A DNA stretch of 64,000 nucleotides from an uncultured Actinomycetes bacterium (GCA_903873715.1 CAIQPS010000094.1:1-64000); one strand, 5' to 3'; numbered from the stretch's first letter, positions 40,705 to 60,111 are shown. A program made the numbers and translations. The notes: a model not told the origin generated them from the letters alone.

Positions 40705-41499
40705 GTGGGCCAGCAACAGATGTCTCTCTCAGCGTTGGGAAGGCTCTTCGATCTCAGTGGCAAGGTCGCTGTCATCAGCGGTTCGAGCGGGGCGTTTGGC
40801 AACGCCATCGCTAGAGGACTGGCTGCCCATGGAGCCGACGTGGCGCTGTTGGACCGTGTCGGTCCGGTCTCCGCGACAGTGGGCGAGATCGAGTCGCTCG
40901 GCCGCCGGGCCTTGGCGCTCACCTGCGACGTCACCGACGAGCAGAGCGTGGAGGCCGCCATGGATGCGGTTGCCAAGGACTTGGGCAAGATCGACGCCTT
41001 GTTCGCGGTGGCAGGCATCGCGGTGCGCCGGGCCTCGGAAGAACTATCGCTCCCCGATTGGCAGAGGGTCATGGATGTGAATGTGAAAGGTACCTGGCTT
41101 TGCTGCACCGCTGCGGGGAGGCACATGATCCGCCAGGGCCATGGCGGAAAGATAGTGACGATCGGGTCGGTGCGCGGCTTTCTGGGCCACCCGGCAGGGT
41201 ATGGGGCCTACGGTACGTCCAAAGGCGCCGTACATCTTTTGACTAAGCAACTCGCTACGGAATGGGCGAAGTACGGGATCAACGTGAATTCCATCGCGCC
41301 CTCCGTCTTCTACACCACGCTCAACACGCCCATCATGGAGAACCAGGAACTGAGCGATCTTTTCCTCTCGAGGATCCCGATGCACCGTTTCGGCCAGCCG
41401 GACGAACTCGTCGGCGCCTCGGTGTTTCTGGCTTCGCCAGCCTCAGACTACGTCACCGGTCTGATTCTGTCCGTCGACGGTGGCGCGGTCGCCGGGTAG
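40705..41499 (+). CDS. SDR family oxidoreductase
   Basis: KVAVISGSSGAFGNAIARGLA, YGAYGTSKGAVHLLTKQLA. Confidence 0.9.
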   Translation: MGQQQMSLSALGRLFDLSGKVAVISGSSGAFGNAIARGLAAHGADVALLDRVGPVSATVGEIESLGRRALALTCDVTDEQSVEAAMDAVAKDLGKIDALFAVAGIAVRRASEELSLPDWQRVMDVNVKGTWLCCTAAGRHMIRQGHGGKIVTIGSVRGFLGHPAGYGAYGTSKGAVHLLTKQLATEWAKYGINVNSIAPSVFYTTLNTPIMENQELSDLFLSRIPMHRFGQPDELVGASVFLASPASDYVTGLILSVDGGAVAG

Positions 41500-41559
41500 T
41501 CGTCCCATGTCCGTCGTCAGCATCGTTTTGACACTTCTTGCGCCTACGGAGGTGCGCGG

Positions 41560-42693
41560 ATGAGAGCCATCAGGCTACATGGCAGAGGCGATATCCGTTT
41601 GGAGGATGTCCCGGCCCCTGGCAGCCTCGGGCCGCGGGACGTTCTTATCAAGCCCCGGTTCTGCGGTATTTGCGGGACCGACCTTCACGAGTACGTGGAG
41701 GGGGCGCGCGTAGTGCCGAGCAAGCCCCATCCCATGACCGGCGCGATGCTTCCCCAGATCCTGGGTCACGAGTTGAGTGCCGATGTCGTGGAGGTCGGCA
41801 CGGATGTCGTCAACACCAAGCCGGGCGATCGCATAGCAGTGATGCCCGAGATCTCCTGCGGCCGCTGCTACTACTGCCAGCGCGGCTGGAATCATCTGTG
41901 CACTCTCCATGCGTGCGTCGGTCTCAGTTGGGCGTGGGGAGGCTTTTCGGAATATGCGGTCGTACCCGACTACAGCGCGGTTGTGCTGCCAGACGCAGTC
42001 TCGTACGAACAGGGAGCACTTCTCGAACCCACCGCCGTCGCCGCGTACGCAGTGGAACGGGGCCACCTTCAAGGAGGGGGGTCGATCCTCATCGCCGGTG
42101 CGGGCCCCATCGGCATCCTTGCCGCGCTCTACGCTCGGGCGATCGGGGCGGGTGCGGTCTACATCACGGAGACCAACGTGAAGCGCCTCGATCTGGCACG
42201 GTCTCTGGGCGTGTCCGAGGTTTTCAACCCAGCGGCCCCTGAGCGGGCCGCCGCCCGGAAACAGGGGAGAGACACGGCCACCGGCGTGTTCGACCCGTCG
42301 AAGAGTTGGGTGGTGGACGCACTTCGCGAGCGCACCGGAGGGGTCGGGGTCGATGTGGCTGTCGACTGTACGGGGAACGAGTTCGGGTTGAACACATGCA
42401 TCAACGCAGTCAGGAGTCGCGGGACGGTCGTCGAGTCGGCGCTGCACGTTCAGTCGCCTACCGTGGACATGTATGCGCTCGGTCTGAAGGACGCGAGCCT
42501 CGAAGCCACTTGGTGCTTCAACGTCTACGACTTCCCCAGGTACGCCTCTCTCATCGCGGCAGGCCGGCTACCGGTGGAGAAGGCGATCAGCGCGAAGATC
42601 CCGCTGGAGGACGTGGACGAAAAGGGTTTCAAGGTGCTCACCGACCCGAGCGGCGGCGCGACCAAGATCCTGGTGTACCCGGAGGCACACTAG
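41560..42693 (+). CDS. Zinc-dependent alcohol dehydrogenase (butanediol dehydrogenase-like MDR)
   Basis: CGICGTDLHEY, GHELSADVVEVG, CGRCYYCQRGWNHLC. Confidence 0.9.
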   Translation: MRAIRLHGRGDIRLEDVPAPGSLGPRDVLIKPRFCGICGTDLHEYVEGARVVPSKPHPMTGAMLPQILGHELSADVVEVGTDVVNTKPGDRIAVMPEISCGRCYYCQRGWNHLCTLHACVGLSWAWGGFSEYAVVPDYSAVVLPDAVSYEQGALLEPTAVAAYAVERGHLQGGGSILIAGAGPIGILAALYARAIGAGAVYITETNVKRLDLARSLGVSEVFNPAAPERAAARKQGRDTATGVFDPSKSWVVDALRERTGGVGVDVAVDCTGNEFGLNTCINAVRSRGTVVESALHVQSPTVDMYALGLKDASLEATWCFNVYDFPRYASLIAAGRLPVEKAISAKIPLEDVDEKGFKVLTDPSGGATKILVYPEAH

Positions 42694-42701
42694 ACCCGGC
42701 G

Positions 42702-43634
42702 ATGCAGTTCGGCACTGACACCCGGGCGGGCGGTCCACGTTCTCGTCTGCGCATCTCAGCCGGTAGTCTGGCCTTGGTGGTTCTCCCTCTCGTCTGGGCG
42801 TACGGCTGGACCGCGGCGAAGATAGGCGTGGCGTCGGCGGAACCCTTCATGGTGGGTGCACTACGCAATCTGGGGGCTGCGGTCGTCATCCTCGCCGTCG
42901 CCGCCTTCGCCCGGCGACCTCTTCGTCCGAGACCATTGGGCTGGCTGATCCTGCTTGGAGTCCTCCAGACCAGCGGGATGGTCGGTCTGTCAATGTGGGC
43001 TCTGCAACAAGGAGGCGCGGGTAAGGTCTCCGTACTCGCCTACACGATGCCGTTCTGGCTGCTGCTGCTCGCCGCGGTGTTCCTAGGCGAACGCATCCAC
43101 GGTGTGCAGTGGGCCGCAGTGGTGTGTGCGCTGGCCGGACTCGTGGCGATCATCGCGCCGTGGCGTCTCGCTGGGGTCGGCGGCAGTCTTCTCGCCGTGG
43201 GAAGCGGCTTGTTCTGGGCTGCCGGAGCGGTGGTGGTTAAAGTCATACGGAGCCGCTACGAGTGCGATCTTCTGGCGCTTACCGGCTGGCAGATGCTGTT
43301 CGGTGTGATTCCGCTGGCCCTCGTGGCTGCTCTGACCTTCCGTGAGGCTCCCCACTGGAACGGCTCGTTCATAGCCGCGTTGGGCTATCTCGTGGTGTTC
43401 TCCGAGGCGCTCGGTTGGTGCCTGTGGGTGTACGTGCTGAGGAAGATGCCTGCTTCCACGGCGGGTATAACGGTGCTCGCCACGCCGGTCATCGCGATAC
43501 TAATGTCCTGGGCACAACTGGGGGAGCGGCCGGGCGGGATGGAGGCGGTGGGGATGGCGCTGGTGGTGGTGGCGCTCTTCCTCATAACGGTCGGCGCCGT
43601 TATTGCGAGAAGAAGCGATAAAGGCGTGGGCTGA
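42702..43634 (+). CDS. EamA/DMT family transporter
   Basis: Ten hydrophobic segments; VWAYGWTAAKIGVASAEPFMVGALRNLGA. Confidence 0.85.
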   Translation: MQFGTDTRAGGPRSRLRISAGSLALVVLPLVWAYGWTAAKIGVASAEPFMVGALRNLGAAVVILAVAAFARRPLRPRPLGWLILLGVLQTSGMVGLSMWALQQGGAGKVSVLAYTMPFWLLLLAAVFLGERIHGVQWAAVVCALAGLVAIIAPWRLAGVGGSLLAVGSGLFWAAGAVVVKVIRSRYECDLLALTGWQMLFGVIPLALVAALTFREAPHWNGSFIAALGYLVVFSEALGWCLWVYVLRKMPASTAGITVLATPVIAILMSWAQLGERPGGMEAVGMALVVVALFLITVGAVIARRSDKGVG

Positions 43635-43637
43635 GAC

Positions 43638-44216
43638 CTATCTCGAGGGAACTCCCTCGGGATCGGACGTCGGATAGCCGATGGCAGAAACTCGAGACGC
43701 CACACTCTCCATCCGCAGCCGGCGTTTGGACAAGCGCAGGGCCAACTCGTCTGCGAGAGACCCTGCCCAAGCCATTTCCTTGTCTCGGAGGCTAGCCAGG
43801 TACCGGCCGGTGGCCTCGAGGTCGGCGAGGAACCGAGCGCGGACGTCACCGGGCTCGAAGCCGAGGTCTACTGCATACGTGAAGACCCAACGGTCACCCT
43901 TGATGGCGAGTGGCACGTCGAACTCCGCCGAGGGAAGATAATTGACAAGGAATCCAGCGGGCATGACGGTCTTGACGTGGAACATGAGTTCCACTCGCGG
44001 GTTGACGGCCGACGCGATCTCGAGATGGTCGAGCCAGATGCACTCTTCGCACAACTGCGGTACCCCGACGCGGCGTCCAGTCACCAGCGAGACCGCCTGG
44101 GCCTGGAGGTCGGCGTCCGGGTGGGGGTCCACCTCGAACTGGTCCGCTTCCGCCCTGGCATCGTCCGCGGATCGGGCAAGCAAACCATCCAGCATGACGT
44201 TGTTGAATGTCAGCAT
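43638..44216 (-). CDS. Hypothetical protein
   Basis: 192-aa ORF on minus strand, in frame without alternatives, between island genes; LCEECIWLDHLEIAS. Confidence 0.6.
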   Translation of the reverse strand: MLTFNNVMLDGLLARSADDARAEADQFEVDPHPDADLQAQAVSLVTGRRVGVPQLCEECIWLDHLEIASAVNPRVELMFHVKTVMPAGFLVNYLPSAEFDVPLAIKGDRWVFTYAVDLGFEPGDVRARFLADLEATGRYLASLRDKEMAWAGSLADELALRLSKRRLRMESVASRVSAIGYPTSDPEGVPSR

Positions 44217-44299
44217 CTCGTGTCCTCCGAACTGTGGTGCGAAGCGAGCATCGCGGTGACTATGATAGATTGCCGGCCGACAGATAGGGTGGGTCCCCG

Positions 44300-45118
44300 T
44301 TGAAACGCAGTCTCTTCAAAGCTCCAGCCCCCCGCTTTCACTCCTGGCCCCAGGTCCTTGCCGAACCCGCGTATTGGCGCGCTGACGAGTTCATGGTCGC
44401 CAGCACCGCGCTTGAGCACGCGGCCGCATACCTGCTTCGGCGGTATGTGTCGCGGTCGCCCGCTGGGGCGGATGACACTGCGGGTCTTGGCCGCCACATC
44501 ATCATGACCGGCGCAGTCGCCGGTCGCTCTATGCAGCAGGCGGCGCACTCCCGGAACGGCGCTCCGCCGAAGTCGGGTCAGGCAAGCATCGACTCGTCTG
44601 CCGTCGACTCGGTGCTCTTCACGCATATGCATGCCCCGCAGGTCTCCGCTCTTCGCGGGACCGAACGCAGCATGCTGTGCTTGTCCGGCAACGCAGAGCG
44701 GCCATCGGGCGGATTCCGGTCCTTCCCATTCGATCCCCTGTCCTTCGCGGCCCGCCTCGAGGAGTTCGATTTCGAGCGAGCCCCGGAGATGGCGCCACTC
44801 GGCCCGTGCATCGACGTCCTGGGTGACGGGAGCCTCTGGGCCATCTCCACCCCAGGCCCGACGATCGGATGTGTGTCGTACCTGGTGCTGACCGTGGGCG
44901 GTCCCCTTCTTGTCGCCGGTCTTCTCGCCGAGGCTCTCAGGTCCGGCGAGCCCGCTGTGGCCGGGCGTCACAAAGAGTTGGGCCGTTTTAGCCTCCAGCG
45001 CCTGCGCGCGTTTCTCGACTTCTATCCCGCCGTCCGCGTAGCACCTGGGACCGGCTACGAGAGCCCGACTTCGAGGATGGTGGATGGCGAGGAAGTCACC
45101 CAGGGTCTGTTCGAGTAG
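44300..45118 (+). CDS. Metallo-beta-lactamase (lactonase)-fold-like protein with degenerate metal ligands
   Basis: VDSVLFTHMHAPQVSALRG and DVLGDGSLWAISTPGPTIGCVSYLVLT match the MBL layout but lack DH and PGHTxGH residues. Confidence 0.6.
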   Translation: MKRSLFKAPAPRFHSWPQVLAEPAYWRADEFMVASTALEHAAAYLLRRYVSRSPAGADDTAGLGRHIIMTGAVAGRSMQQAAHSRNGAPPKSGQASIDSSAVDSVLFTHMHAPQVSALRGTERSMLCLSGNAERPSGGFRSFPFDPLSFAARLEEFDFERAPEMAPLGPCIDVLGDGSLWAISTPGPTIGCVSYLVLTVGGPLLVAGLLAEALRSGEPAVAGRHKELGRFSLQRLRAFLDFYPAVRVAPGTGYESPTSRMVDGEEVTQGLFE

Positions 45119-45150
45119 CGGACCGGGAGGCAGGTCTGCGGGATCCGTGG

Positions 45151-46215
45151 TCAGAAAACCACCATGACCTTTACCGCCTCGGCCTTATGCGAAACGGCGA
45201 TGTCTACCGCTCCATGAAGGTCCGCGAACGGCACGCGATGCGAGATGAGAGTGGTGAAATCGGCCGTTCTGCGCGCACGGTCCATGAACCGGATCGTGCG
45301 CGGGGTGAAGTCCGAGACGCCGCCCTGTCCGTAGATCGACATACCTCTCCAAAGGGTCTTGCCGATCTCCACCGGCACTTTGTGGCCCACCGTGTGCCCT
45401 ATCAGCCGGACTCGGCACTGGAAGCCGGCGACATCGAAGACCGAGGCGACCGCACCATCGTTCCCCGATGCCTCCACCACCAGGCTGGGACCTCTTCCCG
45501 CAACACACACCTGGGCGATCTGCGGGGCCAACTCCCCGGCCGGTGGTGGTGTCAGGGTGACATCGGCTCCCAACCGCGTAGCGAGGGCCAGCCGGTTGGG
45601 CAGCGGATCGACCACCACCACTCGAGCTCCAGCCGTCTTGCAGGTAATCAGCGCGCTCAGCCCGATGGGGCCCGCGCCGAAGATCACCACGTCATCGCTC
45701 GCGTCCACCCAGCCACCGGGCCCCCATATACCGTAGTAGCCGACGCCGAACGGCTCCACCAAAGCACCTTCTTCGGCCGTCCAATCATCTGGGAGCCTGT
45801 GCAAGTAGCTGTCTTCGATAACCAGATACTCGCCCCACGCTCCGGGGGAATCCGGCCGGAAACCGGCCTCCCGCATGTTCAGGCAGGCCGCGGGCATCAG
45901 GCCCTGCTTGCAGTTGGCGCATCTGAAGCATTTGAGGACGCAGTCTCCGGTCACCTTGTCGCCGACGGCGAATCCGGAGACCATATCTCCCAGCGCGGCA
46001 ACCTGACCGGCCCATTCGTGTCCGGGGGTGTAGGGAGCGAGGTCGTATCGCCCTTCCTTGGATTCGCCCTCGAAGCATTCGACGTCCGACCCGCAGATGC
46101 CGGCCGCCTGAACACGAACGAGCACCTGGCCCGGCCCCGGGTCGGGGATGGCCAGGTGCTCGATTCTCAAGTCGTGCGGACCATGCAGGAACGCGACTTG
46201 TTGTGTTCGGGGCAT
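45151..46215 (-). CDS. Zinc-dependent alcohol dehydrogenase (MDR)
   Basis: GICGSDVECFEG, GHEWAGQVAALG, CFRCANCKQGL, VVIFGAGPIGLSAL. Confidence 0.9.
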   Translation of the reverse strand: MPRTQQVAFLHGPHDLRIEHLAIPDPGPGQVLVRVQAAGICGSDVECFEGESKEGRYDLAPYTPGHEWAGQVAALGDMVSGFAVGDKVTGDCVLKCFRCANCKQGLMPAACLNMREAGFRPDSPGAWGEYLVIEDSYLHRLPDDWTAEEGALVEPFGVGYYGIWGPGGWVDASDDVVIFGAGPIGLSALITCKTAGARVVVVDPLPNRLALATRLGADVTLTPPPAGELAPQIAQVCVAGRGPSLVVEASGNDGAVASVFDVAGFQCRVRLIGHTVGHKVPVEIGKTLWRGMSIYGQGGVSDFTPRTIRFMDRARRTADFTTLISHRVPFADLHGAVDIAVSHKAEAVKVMVVF

Positions 46216-46222
46216 CGTGCTG

Positions 46223-48277
46223 TCAGACCTTGCAGGCGGTCTCCCGCGCTTCGGTCAGCGCGTTGATTATCAGCGACGAATCCACACCGTTGCCGCAACC
46301 GATGCTGTAGACCTCGGGGACGTCCCCGTCTATCTCGTGCTTGAGCCGGTCGTTCGCGCCCGGAGGAAGCAGGACCATGACAGTGTCGGCCGCTAGGGCG
46401 CGCTTCGTGCCGTCTTTCAACGTGATGTCGACGCCGCTGTCCGTGATCTTGTCATAGGTGACCCCGGTCAGCACTTCGACGCCCTCCTTGGCCAGCCAGG
46501 GCAGCGTCCGCTTGATGTAACGCGGAGGCATGCGACCGCCAAGACTCTCCGACTCCTCGAGGACCGTCACCGTGCGCCCTCTCTTCTTCAGGAAGACCGC
46601 GCCCTGCAACCCTTCGATCTGGCCGCCGATGATCACCACCCGCTTGCCGACGCCCGGCAGGGCTATGTTCGAGAGCTTGCCGACGGCATTGGCACCCAGC
46701 ATGCGAAGTGGCCGCTCAGCGGTCCGGGCCAGGCTCGCGACTCCTTCGACGTTCCGGTTCAAGATGCCCGGTATGTCCTCGGGCAGCACGTAGTTGCCGC
46801 CCACTGCCAGTATCACCACGTCAGGTTTGTTCGCCAGCACCACGTGCTTGTCGGCTTCCACGCCTGTCTTGATGGTTATGGGCAGACGCTGGACCTGACG
46901 CGACAGGTAGTCGATGACCGTGGTGACGTCGTCGAAGTCGGTCCCCTTCAGCATCGCGGCAAGGTGCAACTTGCCTCCCAGGTGGCCACTCCTCTCTAGG
47001 AGAATCACGTCATGACCACGAAGGGCGGCCACGCGGGCAGCTTCCATGCCAGCCGGCCCTGCCCCGACCACCAGGACCTTCTTCTTCGTGGGAGCGGGGG
47101 TGATAGCCAGTTCTTTTTCACGGCCAAGAGCCGGGTTCACGCGGCAGCGGCGAGGCCCGTCTTGCGGGTCTTCGCAGGTGGCGCAGCGGCAGCACCTGAC
47201 GATGTCTTCCCTGTTCCCCGCCAGCACCTTGTTGGGCAACTCGTGGTCGGCCCACAAGCCTCGGCCGAGCAGGATCAGATCGGCCTTGCCATCCTTCAGG
47301 ATCTCCTCACCCAAGTCCTCATCCAGGCGGCCGACAGCGATGACTGGGATGCCGACCGACTTCTTGACGGTCGCGGCACTCGGCACCAGGAGACCCGTCT
47401 TGAACTGCTTCACGTACGGTTTCATGAAATCGTCCGGTTCCGGATACGGCCAGTAATCCGGGACGTACTGGAATGGGGCCTTGCCGTACCCATACCCCGC
47501 CAGGCTGATGTAGTGGGCTCCGGCGCGCTCGAACCACGTCCCGGCCTCGGCGGCCTCCGCCGGCGTCATGGCTTTCGGATGGCCGAACTCCTGCCCGTTG
47601 ATCCGCACTCCGATGACGAAGTCCTCGCCGCACCGCTCTTTGATCCCCGCGATGATCTCCCGGTGCAAACGGGTGCGGTTCTCCATGCTTTGCGGCCCGT
47701 ACTGGTCGGTACGATAGTTCCACGCCCTGCTGAGGAAGCTCATCAAGAAATAGCCGTTCGCCGAGTGGCACTCGATGCCGTCGAAACCGCATTTCTTCGC
47801 ACGCACCGCGGCCTCGATGTAGTCGGCCTTCATGGCTTCGATCTCCTCGGTGGTCACGCCGTGCGTGGGAGCGAGATAGTCGAGAGGCAACTGGTCGACG
47901 GTCAGCGTCGTAGAGGCGAGAGGGGTGTAGGTCGTTGAGATGGGCGCCGGCCCAGGGTGATGCAGTTGCGCGAGTATGTGGCAGTCGTGTTTGTGCACGG
48001 CCGCGGCCAGTTCGGTCATCCCTGGGATGTGGCGGTCTTGTGAGAGCCCGCCGAAAAGGAAGGGCAGTTCCGGCTCCGCCGGCTGGAACAGGATGGCGCC
48101 GACGAGGATCATGCTCGCCCCGCCCTCCGCGATACCTTCATACAGATCGATCACCCGGTTGGTGATCATTTGCCCCTCGAGCCAGTACTCGCTCGACTGT
48201 GGAGCCTTGACGATGCGGTTCTTCAGCGTCAGGCTTCCGACCTGCAAGGGGGAAAAGAGCCTCTCGTAATTCTTCAA
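46223..48277 (-). CDS. FMN/FAD/4Fe-4S oxidoreductase, old yellow enzyme / 2,4-dienoyl-CoA reductase-like
   Basis: LFSPLQVGSLTLKNRIVKAP, CCRCATCEDPQDGPRRCRVNPALGRE, VVGAGPAGMEAARVAALRGHDV. Confidence 0.9.
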   Translation of the reverse strand: MKNYERLFSPLQVGSLTLKNRIVKAPQSSEYWLEGQMITNRVIDLYEGIAEGGASMILVGAILFQPAEPELPFLFGGLSQDRHIPGMTELAAAVHKHDCHILAQLHHPGPAPISTTYTPLASTTLTVDQLPLDYLAPTHGVTTEEIEAMKADYIEAAVRAKKCGFDGIECHSANGYFLMSFLSRAWNYRTDQYGPQSMENRTRLHREIIAGIKERCGEDFVIGVRINGQEFGHPKAMTPAEAAEAGTWFERAGAHYISLAGYGYGKAPFQYVPDYWPYPEPDDFMKPYVKQFKTGLLVPSAATVKKSVGIPVIAVGRLDEDLGEEILKDGKADLILLGRGLWADHELPNKVLAGNREDIVRCCRCATCEDPQDGPRRCRVNPALGREKELAITPAPTKKKVLVVGAGPAGMEAARVAALRGHDVILLERSGHLGGKLHLAAMLKGTDFDDVTTVIDYLSRQVQRLPITIKTGVEADKHVVLANKPDVVILAVGGNYVLPEDIPGILNRNVEGVASLARTAERPLRMLGANAVGKLSNIALPGVGKRVVIIGGQIEGLQGAVFLKKRGRTVTVLEESESLGGRMPPRYIKRTLPWLAKEGVEVLTGVTYDKITDSGVDITLKDGTKRALAADTVMVLLPPGANDRLKHEIDGDVPEVYSIGCGNGVDSSLIINALTEARETACKV

Positions 48278-48322
48278 CGTGTTCTCCCTCGTGTTGCTAC
48301 CCGTGCCAGTACCAGGTCTCGG

Positions 48323-48784
48323 CTAGCCCTCGGACTCGACCAGCTCCAGGCAGATGCCGTCGGGGTCTCTGAAGTAGCACCATTTCCAGTCGGGCTTCCC
48401 AGTCTCCTTGAAGACATTGATGGGAGAGTGGAACTCGACGCCCAGATCTTCAAGACGCTTGCGTTCTGCCGCCACGTCGTCGACTCTGAGAGCCAGGTGG
48501 GCCGATCCTGCGATCGAGGGGTTCATATGATAGGGCTGGCAGGCCGGGTCCTTGTACTGGATGAACTCGATCCGATTGCCGGCCAGTTCCATCACCGCGA
48601 TCTCGAGTTCCGCATGGGACTGGCTGAGGCCCCACTTCGTTCCGAAGAGCGCGGTGCCCAGTCCGTCGTACTCGTTGCGGCTGCGGGAGCGCAGCGTCAA
48701 CCCGAGCACATCCTTGTAGAAGTGCACGGTGTCCTCGATATCCGTGACCGAGAAGCTCATGTGGTGCGCGCCTAGAATTGACAC
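48323..48784 (-). CDS. VOC family (glyoxalase-like) protein
   Basis: SILGAHHMSFSVTDIEDTVHFYKDVLGL, WCYFRDPDGICLELVESEG; GTG start at 48784. Confidence 0.88.
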   Translation of the reverse strand: MSILGAHHMSFSVTDIEDTVHFYKDVLGLTLRSRSRNEYDGLGTALFGTKWGLSQSHAELEIAVMELAGNRIEFIQYKDPACQPYHMNPSIAGSAHLALRVDDVAAERKRLEDLGVEFHSPINVFKETGKPDWKWCYFRDPDGICLELVESEG

Positions 48785-48886
48785 TCGATCTCCCTTCTCG
48801 CCGGCGCAGATGTTCGGCGTGTTGATGCCTTGCGCCGGGTCCTCGGGTGTTCTGCCGCCGATTGTTCTTGCTCTGCCCGGTGTTTT

Positions 48887-48898
48887 ACTAATATCACA
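48887..48898 (-). promoter_or_regulatory. TGTGATATTAGT element
   Basis: Reverse complement ACTAATATCACA; identical 12-mer at 40661-40672. Confidence 0.4.
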
Positions 48899-48907
48899 GC
48901 AATGGCG

Positions 48908-48927
48908 AAGTGTGAATACCCACACTT
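48908..48927. promoter_or_regulatory. Operator-like palindrome AAGTGTG-aatacc-CACACTT
   Basis: 7-bp perfect inverted repeat with 6-nt spacer upstream of VOC/OYE operon. Confidence 0.45.
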
Positions 48928-49217: not shown

Positions 49218-50018
49218 ATGACCCAAGCGGGTTACAAAGGCTTGAAGGGCAAAGTCTGCGTCGTCACAGGTGCGGCTCAAGGGATCGGTCGGGGGATCGC
49301 CACGCGGCTGGCCCAGGAGGGCTGCTCGGTCATCTTCGCCGATCTCAAGACTGCGGATGTGGAATCCGCCGCTGAAGCCGCTCGGGCTGCTGGAGGCCGG
49401 GCGGCCTCCTTCACCGTCGACGTCACCGAACGCTCGTCCGTGGCAGGCTTGGTGCAGTATGCAGCAGAGACCTTCGGCGCTCTCGACGTCATGTTCAACA
49501 ACGCCGGCATCACCCACGGGTGCGACTTCCTTGATCTTCACGAACGGGATTTCGACCGGGTGATGAGGGTGAACGGCTTAGGAGTGCTCTTCGGCATCCA
49601 GGAAGCCGCCAAACAGATGATCAGCCAAGGGACAGGCGGCAAGATCGTCAACACCAACTCTCAAGCGGGCAAGACGGCGTGGCCAGACTATGCCGGCTAC
49701 TGCGCGAGCAAGTTCGTGGTGAGTTCCTTGACGCAATCGGGTGCCCGAGCACTCGCCAAGCACCGGATAACAGTCAATTCCTTCGCCCCCGGCCTGGCGC
49801 GGACTCCCATTTGGGAAGTGCTCGAGGCCGATGCCATGGCTGCCGGGCAGATCCATGAGCGGGGGGAGATGGTCAAGGAGTTCGAAAAGGGCATCTTGCT
49901 GGGACGCGGTCAAGAGCCAGGGGAGTTCGGGGGCATCGCCTGCTATCTCGCCTCTGAGGATTCCGACTGGATCACGGGGCAGACCATCATGATCGATGGC
50001 GGGATGGTCTTCCTGTAG
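49218..50018 (+). CDS. SDR family oxidoreductase
   Basis: KVCVVTGAAQGIGRGIATRLAQEG, NNAGITHGCD, YAGYCASKFVVSSLTQ. Confidence 0.92.
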   Translation: MTQAGYKGLKGKVCVVTGAAQGIGRGIATRLAQEGCSVIFADLKTADVESAAEAARAAGGRAASFTVDVTERSSVAGLVQYAAETFGALDVMFNNAGITHGCDFLDLHERDFDRVMRVNGLGVLFGIQEAAKQMISQGTGGKIVNTNSQAGKTAWPDYAGYCASKFVVSSLTQSGARALAKHRITVNSFAPGLARTPIWEVLEADAMAAGQIHERGEMVKEFEKGILLGRGQEPGEFGGIACYLASEDSDWITGQTIMIDGGMVFL

Positions 50019-51685: not shown

Positions 51686-53209
51686 ATGGCTGAGATTCAT
51701 CTGACCGCACGGGGTCTTACCAAGGACTATCCAGGCGTGCGAGCGCTCGATGATGTCAGCATCGACATCTACGAGAACGAAGTCGTCGGACTCATAGGTG
51801 AGAACGGCGCGGGCAAGTCGACGTTCCTCAACGTCGCAAGCGGCATCACGAAGGCCACTCACGGCGAGATGCTGCTACGTGGCCAGCCATTCCAGCCGAT
51901 CGGCTATCACAGTTCGATGCTGCAAGGCGTGGACCGCGTGTTTCAGGAACAGGCCCTCGTCCCGAACCTCAGGGTCTACGAGAACATGTTCCTGTCGCAC
52001 GAGAAGCACTTCAAGAAATGGGGCGTCCTGCTCGACCAGCGGAAGATGGCGGACAGCGCGCGCAAGGAACTGTCGCTGCTCGGCCTGGACATCGATCCCA
52101 CCAGCCTGACCGAGAACTTCAATACCGCCACCCGGCAACTTATCGAGATCGCCCGAGCGTGCACGATGTCCGCCTGGCTGGGCATCGACCGGCCACTGAT
52201 CCTCTTGGACGAGCCGACCGCCTCGCTTCCTGCCGCTGACGTGGACATACTGTTCGACGTCGTCCGCAGGCTCAAACAACGGGCGTCCTTCGTGTTCGTC
52301 TCACACCGCCTGCCCGAGGTCCTGGCTCTGAGCGACCGGATTTATGTGATGAAGGACGGGAGGGTCGTCGCAGAGACGACTCCGGGTGCCGCCTCCGAAG
52401 GCACGCTCCACGCACTGATGGTGGGCCGTGAGCGAGTGGCGGACTACTACAGAGAATCACGACAGACCTGCTCTTTCGGGGATGAGGTCCTACGGGTCGA
52501 AGGGCTTTCGATCTCCGGAGTGTTCTCCGATGTGAGTCTGTCCGTGAGGTCCGGTGAGATCGTGGGTATCGGCGGCGTGCTGGGTTCCGGCAAGACCGAG
52601 GTCGGCCGGGCTATCGCCGGTGTGCTCTCTGGCGCGACGGGCGAGATGACGGTCTGCGGCGACATGCACGTGAGCCGGAGCGTTGCCGATGCCATGGAGC
52701 GGGGCGTCGCCTACATGCCTCCCGAGCGTCACACCGAGGGCGTCATGCTCGGCGAGCCTGTCGATTGGAACATGTCCCTCGCTTGCCTGGCGAAGGGATT
52801 CGGCCGCAACGGCTGGCTGGATGTGGGGCATGAGCGCAAGCAGGTGGAGGAATACATCCACCTGCTGGGCGTGAAGACCCCGAGCCGACGGACCCAACTG
52901 CTCAGCTTGAGCGGCGGCAACCAGCAGAAGGTAGTTCTCGCCAAATGGCTGCTGACCGATCCCAAGGTCTTGATCCTCGACAACCCCACTCATGGGATCG
53001 ACGCCGGCGCCAAAGAGGAGATCTACGAGTTGCTCCGCAACTTGGCCGATCAAGGGGTCGCGATCCTCGTCATCACCGATGACCTGGCCGAACTCATCGG
53101 CCTGAGCGATCGCATCCTGGTCATGAGAGACGGAACGATCACTTGGCAGGGAGACACTCCCTGCGGAGCCAAGCCGTCCGAGAAAAACGTCATTGCGAAC
53201 ATGGTCTAA
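51686..53209 (+). CDS. Sugar ABC transporter ATP-binding protein (two ABC domains, RbsA-like)
   Basis: GENGAGKSTFLNVASG, LILLDEPTASLP, LSGGNQQKVVLAKWL. Confidence 0.93.
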   Translation: MAEIHLTARGLTKDYPGVRALDDVSIDIYENEVVGLIGENGAGKSTFLNVASGITKATHGEMLLRGQPFQPIGYHSSMLQGVDRVFQEQALVPNLRVYENMFLSHEKHFKKWGVLLDQRKMADSARKELSLLGLDIDPTSLTENFNTATRQLIEIARACTMSAWLGIDRPLILLDEPTASLPAADVDILFDVVRRLKQRASFVFVSHRLPEVLALSDRIYVMKDGRVVAETTPGAASEGTLHALMVGRERVADYYRESRQTCSFGDEVLRVEGLSISGVFSDVSLSVRSGEIVGIGGVLGSGKTEVGRAIAGVLSGATGEMTVCGDMHVSRSVADAMERGVAYMPPERHTEGVMLGEPVDWNMSLACLAKGFGRNGWLDVGHERKQVEEYIHLLGVKTPSRRTQLLSLSGGNQQKVVLAKWLLTDPKVLILDNPTHGIDAGAKEEIYELLRNLADQGVAILVITDDLAELIGLSDRILVMRDGTITWQGDTPCGAKPSEKNVIANMV

Positions 53210-53227
53210 GGCGCCGAGGAGGAAACG

Positions 53228-54223
53228 GTGAGTAGTGAAGTGACGACAACGGCATCAGCCACTGTCGGGTCGACGAAAGCCCGGAGGATCCGGCTCCAGG
53301 GACCTGTGTTGGCTCTGATGTCTCTCGTGCTGCTGTTGATAGTGTTCTCCGCCTTGAACGCCAGGTTCTTCAGCGTGGACAACCTCTACAACATCTTGAG
53401 AGGCACGTCCGTGCTCCTCGTGGCCGCTTCCGGTGCCACGTTCATCATCATGATGGGCAGTATCGACCTGTCTGTCGGCGCGGTGGTGGGCGGGGTCGGC
53501 ATCGTCGCCGGCGTCCTCCTGCGTGACTATGGGACCGGGGCCTGGACGATCCTGATCGTATTGGTCCTTGGATTGATCATCGGCGCCTTCAACGGCTTTC
53601 TCTTCGCCTACATAAAGCTTCCCAGCTTCCTGGTGACACTCGGCTCGCTCAGTATCGTCGTCGGCCTCTCGGACGTGCTGGTGAACGGCGTCCCGGTGCA
53701 AGTCGATCGGCACCAGGCGTTCGTGAAGATCCTCGGAGGGACGATCAACAACTTCCCGATCATCGCCCTCTGGGCCATCTTCGTGGTGATCGTCTGCATA
53801 ATCGTTGCCTTCAGGACCAGGTTCGGCCGCTACATGTTCGCGCTGGGCGGCGGCGAGAGGGTGGCCGCGCTGGCCGGTCTGCCTGTTCGGCGTTACAAGC
53901 TGTACGCCTTCCTGGTGGCCGGCGTACTGGCCGCTTTCGCGGCTTGCCTGCTGACCGCCCGCCTATCCTCGGGCTCGCCGGGCATGGGCGACTCCTATCT
54001 GCTCGACTCGATCGCGGCTGTCGTCATGGGCGGCACGGCTCTGAGCGGCGGCGTCGGCGGCCCGCACCGGACCATCCTGGGGGCGCTCATCATCGGCGTC
54101 CTAAGCAACGGTCTGAACCTGGTCGGCGTGGACCCGTTCTGGCAGATGGTCGTAAAAGGCTTCGTCGTGATCGTTGCGGTCATCATGAGCATCGACCGGT
54201 CGAAGATCCAGATCGTCAAGTAA
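53228..54223 (+). CDS. Sugar ABC transporter permease (RbsC-like)
   Basis: Multi-TM; GSIDLSVGAVVGGVG, GGTALSGGVGGPHRTILGALIIGVLSNGLNL. Confidence 0.92.
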   Translation: MSSEVTTTASATVGSTKARRIRLQGPVLALMSLVLLLIVFSALNARFFSVDNLYNILRGTSVLLVAASGATFIIMMGSIDLSVGAVVGGVGIVAGVLLRDYGTGAWTILIVLVLGLIIGAFNGFLFAYIKLPSFLVTLGSLSIVVGLSDVLVNGVPVQVDRHQAFVKILGGTINNFPIIALWAIFVVIVCIIVAFRTRFGRYMFALGGGERVAALAGLPVRRYKLYAFLVAGVLAAFAACLLTARLSSGSPGMGDSYLLDSIAAVVMGGTALSGGVGGPHRTILGALIIGVLSNGLNLVGVDPFWQMVVKGFVVIVAVIMSIDRSKIQIVK

Positions 54224-54334
54224 GACCGTCGCTCCACCGGCCGGGCCGGATCAGCGACTTGCTCGAGAGAACACCAGGGGCGGGGGTCCCGCTGCTGGGT
54301 CGCTCCACCCAGACACAGATACTAGGAGGACACC

Positions 54335-55357
54335 TTGAAAGGCTTCGTCATCACCGCCCCGAACGAGTACGCGTACCAGGACTTCCCCGATCCGGTCATC
54401 AGCGACGACGAGGTCCTCATCAAGTCCCGGGCGAGTGGTATCTGCCATTCGGACTACGAACTGATCTCCGGGCAGTACATCATCCCGTTCACGTACCCCG
54501 TGATCCCGGGCCACGAGTGGTCCGGAGAAGTGGTGGACGTAGGCAGGAACGTCACCCGGTTCAAGGCCGGCGACCGGGTCGTGGGCGAGTGCGTCATCGG
54601 TTGCGGAGCGTGCCCCATCTGCCAGAGCGGGAACTTCACCAACTGCCCGACTTCCGATCACTTCGGTTTCACCATCAACGGCGCCCATGCTGAATACCTG
54701 AAAGCGAAGCCTGAGTGGCTGCACAAGCTGCCGGACGCCGTCTCCTACAAGCAAGGAGCGCTCATCGAGCCGTTCAGCGTGGCCTACCACGCGATCGTGG
54801 CCAACGGGGGAACCGACGCCAGCGAGGTCGTGGCTGTTCTGGGCGGCGGCCCCATCGGCCAGGCTGCCGTTGCCGCGGCCAGTGGTATGGGTGCACGGGT
54901 CGTGCTCATCGAGCCGTTGGCCCATCGTCAGGAGATCGGCAAGAAACTGGGCGCGACGACGGTCGTCGACCCGACCTCGGCTGACGCGGTAGAAGTGGTC
55001 AAGGAGATGACCGGAGGCTTCGGTGCTGACCTCGTGATCGAATCGGCCGGTGTAGACGCTTCGCTGGCATCGGCGTTCAACCTGCCTAGGAACAACGGGC
55101 GCATCTCGTTCGTGGGTATCAATATCGGCAAGGTCATCCCGGTGGAACTGGGCAAGATCCAGGCAAGAGGCCTACAGGTCAAGGGGATGGTCGGCTCTCC
55201 ATACGTCTGGGAACGGTGCATCGCTTTCCTCGCGCACAGCGGCAAAGACATCTCTCCGATCGTTACCCACGAGTTCAAGTTGGACGAGGTGGAGGATGCG
55301 TTCACCCTTGCTTCAAAACGTTCCGAGTGCATCAAGGTGATGGTGTTCAACGACTAG
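54335..55357 (+). CDS. Zinc-dependent alcohol dehydrogenase (MDR)
   Basis: GICHSDYELISG, GHEWSGEVVDVG, CGACPICQSGNFTNC. Confidence 0.9.
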   Translation: MKGFVITAPNEYAYQDFPDPVISDDEVLIKSRASGICHSDYELISGQYIIPFTYPVIPGHEWSGEVVDVGRNVTRFKAGDRVVGECVIGCGACPICQSGNFTNCPTSDHFGFTINGAHAEYLKAKPEWLHKLPDAVSYKQGALIEPFSVAYHAIVANGGTDASEVVAVLGGGPIGQAAVAAASGMGARVVLIEPLAHRQEIGKKLGATTVVDPTSADAVEVVKEMTGGFGADLVIESAGVDASLASAFNLPRNNGRISFVGINIGKVIPVELGKIQARGLQVKGMVGSPYVWERCIAFLAHSGKDISPIVTHEFKLDEVEDAFTLASKRSECIKVMVFND

Positions 55358-55477
55358 AGCCGCCTGCGCTTGCTAACGCGCGGCATGGTGAGTGTGTAAA
55401 CTAAAGGTTGAAAGCTGAGGCTTGCTCAGGTATGCCAACGAAGTTTGTGGACTGAGCGATGGGGTGCGCACGAAGAG

Positions 55478-56167
55478 ATGGCTGAAGATCAAGAAATGCC
55501 TGCAGTCGTAGAGCGTCTGACCCAGCTGGGCCTGAAGATCCGCGAGGCTCGCCGCATGCGCGGCCTGACTCTCCAGGAGCTTGCAGGGAAGGTCGGCCTC
55601 ACGGCGAGCCACATCAGCCAGATAGAACGTGGGCTCACGAGCCCGTCTGTGAGTGCGCTCTTGAGCATCGCAGGTGCGCTCGATCTCCCCATGGAGCACT
55701 TTTTCGCCCACGAGCAAGACGCCCCGATGATCGCACGCTCGGTCCTTTCAGCTCACGCGCTCCTCACCAGACAACCGGCCCCTGGCAACGGCTCGCAGGG
55801 TGCCGAGGCCTCGACGCGCTCACGAAGCGGTGAGAAGAGCCCAGTGGTCATCCCCGAGGACCGGGAGACCATCAACATCATCGGCGGCATCCAGTGGCAG
55901 CGGCTGACGCCGACCAACGAGGAGGCAATCGAGTTCCTCGAGTTGCACTACGCGCCGGGTGCGTCGAGCGGGGAACACGCATATGCTCACCGCGGGAGAG
56001 AGTTCGGCCGTGTGCTACAGGGCACGCTGCTCGTCGAGCTCGGTTTCTCTAGGTACACGCTTCACGAAGGCGATGCCATCACCTTCGATTGCAGCATTCC
56101 GCATCGTTTCACCAACATAGGCGACGATCCGTTCATCGGTGTGTGGGTGATCCTCGATCGGCTGTAG
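55478..56167 (+). CDS. XRE-family transcriptional regulator with C-terminal cupin sensor domain
   Basis: REARRMRGLTLQELAGKVGLTASHISQIERGLTSPSVSALLSIAGAL; cupin HAYAHRGREFGRVLQGTLLVELG. Confidence 0.92.
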   Translation: MAEDQEMPAVVERLTQLGLKIREARRMRGLTLQELAGKVGLTASHISQIERGLTSPSVSALLSIAGALDLPMEHFFAHEQDAPMIARSVLSAHALLTRQPAPGNGSQGAEASTRSRSGEKSPVVIPEDRETINIIGGIQWQRLTPTNEEAIEFLELHYAPGASSGEHAYAHRGREFGRVLQGTLLVELGFSRYTLHEGDAITFDCSIPHRFTNIGDDPFIGVWVILDRL

Positions 56168-56203
56168 CCCGGGGCCTCACCGGCCCCGAGCTACAGCCGA
56201 TCG
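56155..56203 (+). terminator. Long hairpin terminator containing the XRE-cupin stop codon
   Basis: CGATCGGCTGTAGC..CGGGGCC-tcacc-GGCCCCG..GCTACAGCCGATCG, ~22-bp stem with one mismatch. Confidence 0.75.
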
Positions 56204-56308
56204 TCATACGTCTCTGACCCGAACTGGGTTCTCTTTCTCCACAATCGTCCTCCGGCGCTTGTAGCTCCTGTGCACGCAACCGTCAGATTGCGCTCCCATG
56301 AGTTTGGG

Positions 56309-56372
56309 TCAGCTGAAATTCATCCTGTCAGTTGAAATGCTAGTTGAATTATTGGTGGCTACGTTGTAATTT
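56309..56372 (+). promoter_or_regulatory. Promoter with direct-repeat regulator site
   Basis: TCAGCTGAAAT (56309-56319) and TCAGTTGAAAT (56328-56338), AGTTGAA (56342-56348) overlapping -35 TTGAAT (56344-56349), 17-nt spacer, -10 TAATTT (56367-56372). Confidence 0.5.
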
Positions 56373-56435
56373 GGCATTCGTACCCAGGTAATGCCGATGT
56401 CTCCCGCGATGACGGGGACCGAGGAGGCGATCTGC

Positions 56436-56795
56436 ATGTCAGGCAAGCTCTGCAAAGTCACCAAGGACAGCACGTGGGTGACCGAAGTGCCCAATCACAT
56501 CGCGTACCGCTTGACCCCGATGGTGAGCCCCAAGACCTGCCCTGGCGCGCAGATCGAATTCTATGTAGGGGAGTTCGAACCGGGCAAAGGGGGGGCGATC
56601 CCGCATACCCACGCCAAAGAGGACCATGTCTTCTACGTGCTTTCCGGCCGCGCGACCTCCAAGGTTGGCGACGAGGTCCACATGTGCGAGCCCGGTGACG
56701 CCCTATGGGTCCCGGCGGGCGAGATGCACGACTTCGACGTGGTCGGCGGCGAGACCTTCCGCGTCATCGCCATCTTCTCGCCGCCTCGCGCGTAG
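56436..56795 (+). CDS. Cupin domain protein
   Basis: IPHTHAKEDHVFYVLSGRATSKVGDEVHMCEPGDALWVPAGEMHDF. Confidence 0.88.
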   Translation: MSGKLCKVTKDSTWVTEVPNHIAYRLTPMVSPKTCPGAQIEFYVGEFEPGKGGAIPHTHAKEDHVFYVLSGRATSKVGDEVHMCEPGDALWVPAGEMHDFDVVGGETFRVIAIFSPPRA

Positions 56796-56837
56796 GCCAC
56801 GTATCCCGCATCTCCGGCTGCGAAGGAAAGGATTGAC

Positions 56838-57740
56838 ATGGGAACGGTAGGTTTCGTTGGCGTCGGCAAGATGGGATCGCGGATGGCCAACAGGCTCATC
56901 GACGCCGGACACCAACTCACGGTCTGGAACCGGCAGGACCCGTTCTTCGAGGAGAACGTGAGGCCTCTGGCGGCCAAGGGCGCCACGATCGCGTCGAGCC
57001 CCGCTGAGGCGGCCGACTCGAAAGACATCTGTTTCGTGAACGTCGCCGATGGTCCCAGTCTGAAGGAAGTGTGCCTGGGAGCCGGCGGGATCCTTTCGGC
57101 GGTCACTCTGCCCAAGCTGCTCGTCGACATGGCGACAGTCGGGCCTTGGGAGTCTGAGGAGATCGCGGCCGCGGCGGCTGCCAAGGGTGTGGGGTTCCTG
57201 CGCTCACCCGTGAGCGGTAGCACCGTGCTTGCCGAAGCGGGCAAGCTCACGGTCATCGCGTCGGGCGCGAAGGAAGACTACGATGCGGCGGATCCCTATC
57301 TCGCCTCCATCGGTGAGATCCGGTACTACGTGGGCCCGGGCGAGAACGCCCGCTACCTGAAGCTCATCTTCAATCTGAACATCTTCGCCCAGATGCAGAT
57401 CCTTGCGGAGAGCGCTGTGCTCGGTGAAAAAGGCGGCCTCGACTGGAGCGAGATGTTGGAGGTCATCACCTCGAGCGTAGCGGCTTCTCCGTTCGTCAAG
57501 TACAAGATCCCGCCGATGCAGAAGAGGGACTACAGCCCGGCCTTCACCCTCGGTCTGGCGCGGAAGGATGTCAAGCTCGCTCTCGAGGCCGCACGCCGGG
57601 CAGGCGTCGACATGCCGGTGACAGAGCTGGTGCTGAACCTGCAGGAGCAGGCCATGGACGAGGGCCTCGCCGATCTCGACGTGGCTGCCGTGACTCTTTG
57701 GTACCAGAAGAAGGCGGGGCTCGAGGCTAACGACCAGTAG
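56838..57740 (+). CDS. NAD(P)-dependent 3-hydroxyisobutyrate dehydrogenase-family oxidoreductase
   Basis: VGFVGVGKMGSRMANRLIDAGHQLTVWNR, FLRSPVSGSTVLAEAGKLTVIASG. Confidence 0.9.
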   Translation: MGTVGFVGVGKMGSRMANRLIDAGHQLTVWNRQDPFFEENVRPLAAKGATIASSPAEAADSKDICFVNVADGPSLKEVCLGAGGILSAVTLPKLLVDMATVGPWESEEIAAAAAAKGVGFLRSPVSGSTVLAEAGKLTVIASGAKEDYDAADPYLASIGEIRYYVGPGENARYLKLIFNLNIFAQMQILAESAVLGEKGGLDWSEMLEVITSSVAASPFVKYKIPPMQKRDYSPAFTLGLARKDVKLALEAARRAGVDMPVTELVLNLQEQAMDEGLADLDVAAVTLWYQKKAGLEANDQ

Positions 57741-57872
57741 ACGGCGGCCGTATTCGTCTCCTCCTTTTGAGCGCCCCGCCTATGTGGAGGCGGCGTGTGC
57801 TCTCAGTCAGACCCCTCGCCGCCCGTCCCCTTCCGGCGAGGGGTCTTCTCCTTCCACGAGAAAGGCGCGACG

Positions 57873-58574
57873 GTGAAACGACCCAGATTGATCGATCTCA
57901 GCCAGGAGATCTTCGAAGGCGCCCCGGTGTTCTCCGGCCACCCAGAGACCAAGATACGGGTGGCGGATACCTTCGAGCAGACGCGGCTGCGCTATGAAGA
58001 AGGCTACGGGTATGTCACCGAGACCATCGACATGAGTACCCACGGAACCACTCACGTCGACTCGATAAGTCACATCGATCCGTCCCCGGGCGCCTCCACG
58101 ATAGACCGGATCCCGCTTGAATGGTTCTACACGGAGGCCGTCTGCCTCGACATCTCCGGCTCTCCCGCTCGGACCTACTTCACCGTGCCCATGATAGAAG
58201 CAGCTCTGCTCAAGGATGATCTCGACATCCGCCCGGGGGACACGGTGCTGATCAATTCGGGGCATTACGAACGGCGCTGGGGCACGCCCGCGTGGCTCAC
58301 CGATTATCCGGGGCTCACCCGAGAAGCTGCCGAGTTCATCTTCGGCAAGGGCGCGGTGAACATCGGCCAAGATGCTCCGAGCATAGACTGCGTTCTCACC
58401 AGGAGCTTTCCGGCGCATCAGGTCTGCCGCGAGATGCAAAGGATCAACACTGAGAATCTCGCCGATCTGAGGCCGATCACCGGCCGCCGGTTCATATTCT
58501 GCGCGTTCCCGCTCAAGATCCGCGGCGGCAGCGGGTCACCCGTGCGCGCGGTGGCCTTCATCGAGGAAGAGTAG
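57873..58574 (+). CDS. Cyclase family protein (PF04199, kynurenine-formamidase-like)
   Basis: RLIDLSQEIFEGAPVFSGHP, STHGTTHVDSISHIDP metal site; GTG start. Confidence 0.88.
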   Translation: MKRPRLIDLSQEIFEGAPVFSGHPETKIRVADTFEQTRLRYEEGYGYVTETIDMSTHGTTHVDSISHIDPSPGASTIDRIPLEWFYTEAVCLDISGSPARTYFTVPMIEAALLKDDLDIRPGDTVLINSGHYERRWGTPAWLTDYPGLTREAAEFIFGKGAVNIGQDAPSIDCVLTRSFPAHQVCREMQRINTENLADLRPITGRRFIFCAFPLKIRGGSGSPVRAVAFIEEE

Positions 58575-58597
58575 ACCCCCTCACCAAGGAGCAGCCG

Positions 58598-59677
58598 ATG
58601 GCTGGACCGGGCACAGAAATGAAAGCTGTCGTGTTGGATGGACCAGGGAGCTTCCAGGCGCGCCCGCTCCCCATCCCGGAGCCGCGCGGCGACGAAGTGC
58701 TTTGCCGGGTGATGTCGGTCGCGATCTGTGGCTCCGACCCGAAGATCGTCAAAGGAGCCACCCGGCCTACATGGCCGCCGTCCTACCCGTTCGTCATCGG
58801 ACACGAGTGGGCCGGCGAGGTGGTCGGTGGCTCGGCCGATCTCGCTGCCAGTCAGGCCGCGAAGTTCCGCCCCGGGACGAGGGTGGCCGGCGAGGCGCAT
58901 AAGGGCTGCGGGTCCTGCGAGAACTGCCTGCGGGGTAGATACAACCTTTGCCTCGACTATGGGAATGAGGCGGCCGGGCACAGGCACTACGGATTCACGT
59001 CTCAGGGCGCGTACGCGGAATACATCGCGGTCTCCATCCAAGCTCTCCATCTCCTTCCTGACGCGATCTCTTTCGACCAGGCCGCGATGCTCGACACTGC
59101 AGGGGTGGCGGTGCATGCGGTCCAGCGGGGCCGCATCGGCATCGGGGACACCGTAGTGGTCGTCGGGGACGGGCCGATCGGGATCCTGACCATGCAGTAC
59201 GCGCGCACTGCGGGAGCCGGCGAGGTCATCGTCGTCGGTTCCGGACCCCGGTTACAGATGGCCCGAGAACTGGGGGCTACCGGCGTCGATTTCACCGACG
59301 TCGGCGGGTCGATCGACCGAGTGGTCACACTCACCGGAGGCATGGGAGCCGACGTGGTGTTCGAGTGCGCGGGTATCCGCTCGTCCTGCGAGCAGTCGGT
59401 GATGATGGTGCGAAAGGGCGGCCGGCTGGTGATGGTTGGCAATCCTATCGAGCCAGCGACGATACCCTGGGGCAAGGTCAGCTTGGACGAGATCGAACTC
59501 ATAGGCTGCCGGGCGAACCCGAATGTCTCCGACCGCGCGCTACGGCTGATCTCGACCGGGGTGATACGCGTGGAGGGCCTCATCACACACAACTTCCCTC
59601 TGGACGACTTCGGCGAGGCGTTGGCCACCTTTGTCGAGCAACGGGACGGGGCCATGAAGGTGGTAGTGAACCCATAG
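58598..59677 (+). CDS. Zinc-dependent alcohol dehydrogenase (MDR)
   Basis: AICGSDPKIVKG, GHEWAGEVVGG, CGSCENCLRGRYNLC. Confidence 0.9.
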   Translation: MAGPGTEMKAVVLDGPGSFQARPLPIPEPRGDEVLCRVMSVAICGSDPKIVKGATRPTWPPSYPFVIGHEWAGEVVGGSADLAASQAAKFRPGTRVAGEAHKGCGSCENCLRGRYNLCLDYGNEAAGHRHYGFTSQGAYAEYIAVSIQALHLLPDAISFDQAAMLDTAGVAVHAVQRGRIGIGDTVVVVGDGPIGILTMQYARTAGAGEVIVVGSGPRLQMARELGATGVDFTDVGGSIDRVVTLTGGMGADVVFECAGIRSSCEQSVMMVRKGGRLVMVGNPIEPATIPWGKVSLDEIELIGCRANPNVSDRALRLISTGVIRVEGLITHNFPLDDFGEALATFVEQRDGAMKVVVNP

Positions 59678-59697
59678 CGCTCGAGGAGCGGATACCG

Positions 59698-60111
59698 ATG
59701 GGATCGAGTGCAGAGCGACTTGCGATCATGAACGCACTCAGCAGTTACGCGTGGGGCAACGACACGCGGGATCTCGCACTTCTGGCCGATTGCTTCACCG
59801 AGGATGCGATATGCAGCGGGTACGTGGAGGAGCAGTTGTGCTGGGGACCGATCGCTGGCCGTGACAACATCGTCAGAGAACTGTCCGCCCGCGTCCCGGC
59901 CGAAGGGATACGCCGCCACCACATCGGCAGTATCCGCTTCGTCAAGGTCGAGGATGGAGAGGCCCATGTGGTCTCCTACATGGTCGTCACGCACGCACAG
60001 GATGGGAAGGCGACGCTCGAGACGACCGGCTGGTACAAGGACACCCTCATAGGTGAAGGAGACAGTTGGCGCTTCAAGGAGAAGGAGTGGCACATCGACT
60101 GTGCCGTGTGA
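59698..60111 (+). CDS. SnoaL/NTF2-like domain protein
   Basis: MNALSSYAWGNDTRDLALLADCFTEDAICSG, GRDNIVREL, HHIGSIRFVKVEDGEAHVVSYMVV. Confidence 0.8.
   Translation: MGSSAERLAIMNALSSYAWGNDTRDLALLADCFTEDAICSGYVEEQLCWGPIAGRDNIVRELSARVPAEGIRRHHIGSIRFVKVEDGEAHVVSYMVVTHAQDGKATLETTGWYKDTLIGEGDSWRFKEKEWHIDCAV

Follow-up and report, generated by a model that had tools for sequence, protein, structure and literature searches.

A candidate catabolic island with a PF04199 cyclase, possibly for a cyclitol-like ring, in the genome of an uncultured actinomycete

Gene content and insertion of the block

The DNA described here is a 64,000-nucleotide stretch from an uncultured Actinomycetes bacterium (GCA_903873715.1, CAIQPS010000094.1:1-64000). 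This stretch, hereafter the window, is nearly the whole of contig C94, which measures 64,062 bases and belongs to a 3.33 Mb draft genome labelled G000. Positions 40705 to 60111 hold a block of approximately 20 genes, which includes a CUT2-type ATP-binding cassette importer, four zinc dehydrogenases of the medium-chain dehydrogenase/reductase (MDR) type (ADH1–ADH4), two short-chain dehydrogenases/reductases (SDR1 and SDR2) and a cyclase of family PF04199. Genes were called from open reading frames (ORFs) and Pfam families, while assignments at the equivalog level were made with NCBIfam cut-offs. The original prediction, made from the sequence alone, had listed the gene content of this block and proposed an acquired catabolic island acting on a polyol or cyclic polyol. 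Every gene named in it is an open reading frame, and all but two match their expected Pfam families, so that the listed content holds at its places for nearly all genes. The block is an insertion relative to two members of the same family and was probably acquired, and it may serve the breakdown of a cyclitol or a similar polyhydroxylated ring. We infer the functions of all island enzymes, the substrate class and the roles discussed below from sequence comparisons.

Flank mapping shows that the interval 38673–61017 is absent at the same place in the same-family genomes G046 and G097, which lack approximately 22 kb between the genes that flank the block. The points matching window positions 38552 and 61835 are separated by 250 bp in G046, where the flanking genes keep the same order. 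For positions 38621 and 61150, the separation in G097 is 0.43 kb; there the flanking genes are joined, and the methyltransferase gene (near 61018) adjoins ArgZ as it does in the window. The flanks comprise an ArgZ-like gene (61800–63065), a peptidyl-prolyl isomerase-type ORF read from the sequence near 38157–38672, and PBP/DAGK genes. The GC content at third codon positions (GC3) is 0.790 in the island genes and 0.885 in 24 flanking genes (Mann-Whitney p = 1.6e-7), and the intergenic GC is 0.58 in the island versus 0.64 outside, with few spacers to compare. In the class and phylum samples, the cyclase has no match above 44% identity beyond its own genome, whereas relatives at 64–71% identity are found in Chloroflexota and in one Desulfarculaceae metagenome-assembled genome. 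Because the interval is absent in two relatives and the closest cyclases lie in other phyla, gain is likelier than loss. Both the acquisition and the AT-richer intergenic DNA that had been put forward as its sign are thus supported. Neither a tRNA nor a convincing border repeat was detected, and an integrase is absent among the annotated genes. The absent interval also includes a Ser/Thr/Gly-rich lipoprotein gene with repeated β-helix-like segments (38787–40322, minus strand), the GC3 of which is backbone-like.

The cyclase, ADH4 and the remaining genes

The cyclase (57795–58574, plus strand) is a predicted hydrolase of a cyclic 1,3-diketone. Its metal residues are intact (His83, His87, Asp89, His93, His208 and Glu220), and its structural model has the isatin hydrolase fold (pTM 0.71). 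Among solved structures, isatin hydrolases and kynurenine formamidase come closest. These PF04199 enzymes share the fold and metal ligands with the island cyclase; unlike them, to which it is only about 20–25% identical, it sits in a carbocycle-linked context. The family also contains dihydrophloroglucinol cyclohydrolase (DPGC) of Clostridium scatologenes, which has been proven to cleave a cyclic 1,3-diketone by Mn2+-dependent retro-Claisen hydrolysis and has Trp20 and Tyr22 as pocket residues (PMC10470551). The H-x3-H-x-D metal site of DPGC is present in the island cyclase as His83, His87 and Asp89. Trp20 and Tyr22 were not found in this protein, which reads APVFSGH, while DPGC-type cyclases on contigs C69 and C84 of the same genome and in an Acetoanaerobium record (L040) keep the W-P-Y motif (PRWPY on C69). 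Because VFSGH replaces WPY in the pocket, the substrate of the island cyclase probably differs from that of DPGC.

Relatives of the cyclase occur in three Chloroflexota in the order VOC, cyclase, phloroglucinol reductase (PGR)-like SDR and MDR. At loci L019–L021, the VOC gene immediately upstream of the cyclase is 31–33% identical to the vicinal oxygen chelate (VOC)-fold enzyme of the island (48323–48925, minus strand; PF00903), and the SDR adjoining the cyclase is 45–51% identical to SDR1. Thus the VOC, SDR and MDR genes that are spread over the island have relatives that are packed together elsewhere. The loci L018, L019 and L021 also contain xanthine-dehydrogenase-type genes, L018 includes a CUT2 importer, and L020 carries a split transketolase that matches the ones in the IolN clusters described below at 46–52% identity. 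A search of the four genomes with the closest cyclases did not find the importer protein of the island. On plasmids, the neighbourhoods in which the importer and the cyclase occur are mixed and share no pathway; among them, only a Paracoccus record has both a cupin and a CUT2 transporter together with a 41% identical cyclase. A literature search for inositol clusters containing such a cyclase returned nothing relevant.

The cyclase gene ends 23 bp upstream of ADH4 (58598–59677, plus strand), the only MDR of the island with informative orthologs. In Thermotoga maritima, inositol is degraded by IolG, IolM, IolN and IolO, encoded in the operon TM0411–TM0416, and IolN is a creatininase-type diketo-inositol hydrolase. 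Orthologs of ADH4 (55–60% identity, clade support 100/100) are found in only five of 199 genomes of the class (G070, G086, G038, G050 and G076). A search of 109 genomes with the IolN model (NF041098) and its NCBIfam cut-off recovered exactly the same five; IolN was not found in G000, and the Thermotoga positive control was matched. The hypergeometric p value for this co-occurrence is 9e-9, which assumes independent genomes and ignores their relatedness. In four of these genomes, 2–3 kb separate the ADH4 ortholog from IolN, whereas in G050 the two are on short separate contigs. Other members of the IolN clusters are an IclR regulator, a split transketolase and an IolO-like epimerase, which scores 253–258 bits against a cut-off of 300; some of the clusters hold a cupin or a drug/metabolite transporter (DMT) as well. 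The single-domain cupin of the island (56391–56795, plus strand; PF07883) is 44–51% identical to the cupins found beside the orthologs of ADH4 in G038 and G050, while its EamA/DMT transporter (42690–43634, plus strand; PF00892) is 47% identical to the one adjoining the IolN cluster of G086 and 48% identical to one on contig C84 of its own genome. Consequently, the terms "catabolic island" and "cyclic polyol" both gain evidence from the ADH4 orthologs in inositol-type clusters, and the island is not wholly undescribed, as its ADH4 sequence links it to known gene sets of the IolN/IolO type.

The other three dehydrogenases, ADH1 (41560–42693, plus strand), ADH2 (45151–46215, minus strand) and ADH3 (54335–55357, plus strand), have no conserved context here. 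ADH1 and ADH2 match PF08240 and PF00107. All four MDRs keep the catalytic GHE and Cys motifs. The structural C-x2-C-x2-C-x7-C lobe is kept in three of them, including ADH1 and ADH4, with x8 as the last spacing in ADH2. The earlier claim of four intact zinc sites is therefore correct for the catalytic motifs and for three of the four lobes. The further claim that the dehydrogenases imply successive oxidations finds a foothold in ADH4, but not in ADH1–ADH3. The IolM model gives 196, 191, 242 and 174 bits for ADH1 to ADH4, respectively, and is the best NCBIfam model for ADH3.

SDR1 (40705–41499, plus strand; PF13561/PF00106) belongs to the phloroglucinol-reductase clade. It shares 52–59% identity with the SDRs of phloroglucinol clusters and branches within those of PGR-DPGC-BKACE clusters, in a group of 8 rows (96/94) that is part of a larger one of 18 rows (98/93). 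The nearest NCBIfam models to SDR2 (49218–50018, plus strand; PF13561) are acetoin reductase and L-iditol 2-dehydrogenase, both below their cut-offs. The importer is complete in one operon on the plus strand and consists of a substrate-binding lipoprotein with a twin-arginine signal (50116–51534; PF13407, Peripla_BP_4), an RbsA-like double ATPase (51686–53209; two PF00005 stretches) and an RbsC-like permease (53228–54223; PF02653, BPD_transp_2). The solved chains nearest to the binding protein, 4rs3, 5hko and 4rsm, are CUT2 binding proteins, which we take to be mycobacterial polyol-binding proteins.

ADH2 forms an operon with the VOC enzyme and with a 684-residue 4Fe-4S flavoenzyme of the old yellow enzyme (OYE) type (46223–48277, minus strand; PF00724 and PF07992), which has a dienoyl-CoA reductase/BaiCD-like architecture. 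The OYE falls below the NCBIfam equivalog cut-offs of the BaiCD and mycofactocin OYE models (349 versus 793 bits and 313 versus 825 bits, respectively), and its homologs in the same family are 38–42% identical. On the plus strand, an XRE-cupin regulator (55445–56167; PF01381 and PF07883) ends in a strong hairpin (56155–56203) with a folding energy of −51.3 kcal/mol over an 81-nt stretch (z = −8.9), which probably marks the end of the first transcription unit. Judged from gene spacing, transcription seems to run from SDR2 to the XRE-cupin gene and the hairpin, and then from the cupin to the SnoaL gene. This second row includes a HIBADH-family β-hydroxyacid dehydrogenase (56838–57740; PF03446 and PF14833) and ends with a SnoaL/NTF2-like protein (59698–60111; PF13577), the start of which lies near 59698 by its reading frame and not at 59365 as first placed. 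The two genes without a recognised Pfam family are a 192-residue protein (43638–44216, minus strand), which also lacks an NCBIfam match and is poorly predicted in structure (pLDDT 44), and the ORF at 44300–45118 (plus strand). The label "MBL-like" given to the latter did not hold, as only degenerate motifs (THMHAPQ, TPGPTIG) are present and the metal ligands are missing; it resembles a decayed gene of the metallo-β-lactamase (MBL) fold and may be a degenerate gene or a remnant. A minus-strand ORF at 44210–44971 was judged spurious.

A predicted route for a cyclitol-like substrate

The reading favoured here, although it falls somewhat short of probable, is that the block is a horizontally acquired set of genes for degrading a cyclitol or a related polyhydroxylated ring, with the PF04199 cyclase replacing IolN. 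A more specific and more tentative proposal is that the island encodes an undescribed cyclitol or keto-cyclitol route, in which this cyclase stands in the place of the creatininase-type IolN and has spread between phyla in one module with a PGR-like SDR, a VOC enzyme and an MDR. First, a cyclitol-like compound would be taken up by the CUT2 importer and oxidized by SDR2, ADH1 or ADH3. Next, a second oxidation, for which ADH4 is the most likely enzyme, would convert the ketocyclitol to a cyclic 1,3-diketone in the manner of Thermotoga IolM. The cyclase would then add water and open the ring by a retro-Claisen cleavage like that of DPGC. Finally, the resulting open-chain keto acid might be handled by SDR1, the cupin and the HIBADH-type enzyme, while VOC, OYE and ADH2 could form a side branch for an unsaturated ketone.

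The predicted logic is similar to that of the Thermotoga inositol pathway, wherein a zinc MDR dehydrogenates the substrate to a 1,3-diketocyclitol prior to ring hydrolysis, and the ADH4 orthologs of sister genomes sit with IolN and IolO-like genes. In contrast to Thermotoga, the island has no IolN, IolO or Gfo/Idh gene and has a PF04199 cyclase and a CUT2 importer, and its MDRs score far under the IolM cut-off. The plain Thermotoga pathway was consequently rejected, as IolN is absent from G000 and the IolM cut-offs are not reached. The earlier statement that the gene combination matches no standard pathway needs qualification: its predicted logic is shared with the Thermotoga inositol route and with phloroglucinol catabolism, although the hydrolase is different and neither gene set is complete. 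As a whole, the earlier interpretation is partly supported.

Several observations weigh against the favoured reading. A plain inositol route offers no role for OYE or VOC, and the VOC-OYE-ADH2 operon is unexplained by the proposed one. The island lacks a Gfo/Idh myo-inositol 2-dehydrogenase, an IolO-like epimerase and a sugar-acid kinase or aldolase, although the rest of the genome was not searched for them, and none of the four MDRs (174–242 bits) reaches the IolM cut-off of 450 bits. SDR1 falls in an aromatic-ring-reducing clade, the family member closest to the importer (37%) lies among acyl-CoA enzymes and not sugar genes, and the IolN clusters of G070, G038 and G050 adjoin phenolic-ring gene clusters.

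If the favoured reading is true, PF04199, a large and mostly unassigned family, gains a second carbocycle-opening role, and the clusters of cyclase, SDR and MDR in uncultured Chloroflexota and Desulfobacterota become readable. The hydrolytic opening of reduced phenols and of oxidized cyclitols would then be interchangeable chemistry performed by unrelated enzymes. The candidate substrates are narrowed to a short, testable list.

Phenolic-ring clusters and other explanations

The main rival reading, which appears somewhat unlikely, is that the substrate is phenolic or flavonoid-like, with OYE and SDR1 reducing the ring or an enone in the way known from phloroglucinol or isoflavone metabolism, VOC acting as an epimerase and the cyclase cleaving a cyclic 1,3-diketone. 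The placement of SDR1 agrees with this reading, as does the presence of genuine phenolic-ring genes in the same genome. Contig C69 (880–7399) carries a complete phloroglucinol-type cluster in one operon, with a PGR-clade SDR, a 3-hydroxyacyl-CoA dehydrogenase (3HCDH), a DPGC with W-P-Y and a BKACE, together with a transhydroxylase-like FeS protein; this operon is conserved in Acetoanaerobium and many family members. Contig C84 encodes a second DPGC, 71% identical to that of C69, which adjoins the large and small subunits of a pyrogallol hydroxytransferase-like enzyme. The OYE homologs of the family (L097, L101, L102 and L105) repeatedly adjoin transhydroxylase-like molybdoenzymes, which suggests many phenol-modifying clusters, and contig C132 unites a CUT2 importer, a xanthine-dehydrogenase-type enzyme, an OYE and a DPGC-like cyclase.

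The island also resembles the phloroglucinol pathway of C. scatologenes (PGR, DPGC, TfD, TAL; PMC10470551) in its PF04199 hydrolase, metal site, PGR-clade SDR and cyclic 1,3-diketone chemistry. However, it lacks the W-P-Y motif that the genome's own DPGCs keep, a TfD-type 3HCDH and a BKACE, and the true cluster lies on C69; the plain phloroglucinol pathway was therefore rejected for the island. The relatives of ADH4, the cupin and the DMT likewise point away from a phenolic substrate and to IolN clusters. Even these clusters can adjoin phenolic genes, as the IolN cluster of G070 directly adjoins a phloroglucinol cluster. In that genome (C69:18000–36000, L147), PGR, IclR, BKACE, IolO-like, IolN, transketolase and the ADH4 ortholog stand in a row on one strand, joining the phloroglucinol and diketo-inositol gene sets.

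In the equol pathway, daidzein reductase (an OYE), dihydrodaidzein racemase (a VOC-type enzyme) and an SDR as ketone reductase are partners. A similar partnership is seen in the VOC-OYE-ADH2 operon, a likeness at the level of protein families and not of sequence. Unlike the equol enzymes, the ketone reductase of the island is an MDR, and a flavonoid substrate is without evidence.

It is unlikely that the block is a patchwork of separately acquired genes without a single substrate, made up of SDR1-ADH1-DMT, VOC-OYE-ADH2, the transporter operon and the cupin-to-SnoaL operon. Such an origin would fit the four blocks in two directions, the strong internal hairpin, and the findings that no relative with the whole block was found and that the gene sets beside each homolog differ; the tight cluster formed by relatives of VOC, the PGR-like SDR, MDR and the cyclase in three Chloroflexota, the uniformly lowered GC3 and the absence of the block as a whole in two relatives argue against it. 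It is very unlikely that the cyclase is an isatin-hydrolase- or kynurenine-formamidase-like amidase or lactonase for a nitrogen ring or lactone, with the dehydrogenases in a heterocycle pathway, since its structural neighbours and the xanthine-dehydrogenase-type genes at L018, L019 and L021, typical of heterocycle oxidation, are set against an isatin hydrolase identity of just about 25%, an island without a deaminase, amidase or nitrogen-assimilation gene, and the IolN partners of the ADH4 orthologs.

Further observations concern the related clusters. The Acetoanaerobium copy of the phloroglucinol operon (L040) comes from a 2.6 Mb record that is catalogued as a plasmid and carries no annotation. 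On C132 (L095/L028), the CUT2 importer, OYE and DPGC-like cyclase stand in one row with a B12-binding protein, a fused molybdopterin aldehyde oxidoreductase-like protein (1104 bits, above the cut-off) and a radical SAM protein, and the row is possibly a sister pathway. The 3.3 Mb genome encodes eight PF04199 cyclases, which belong to several subfamilies.

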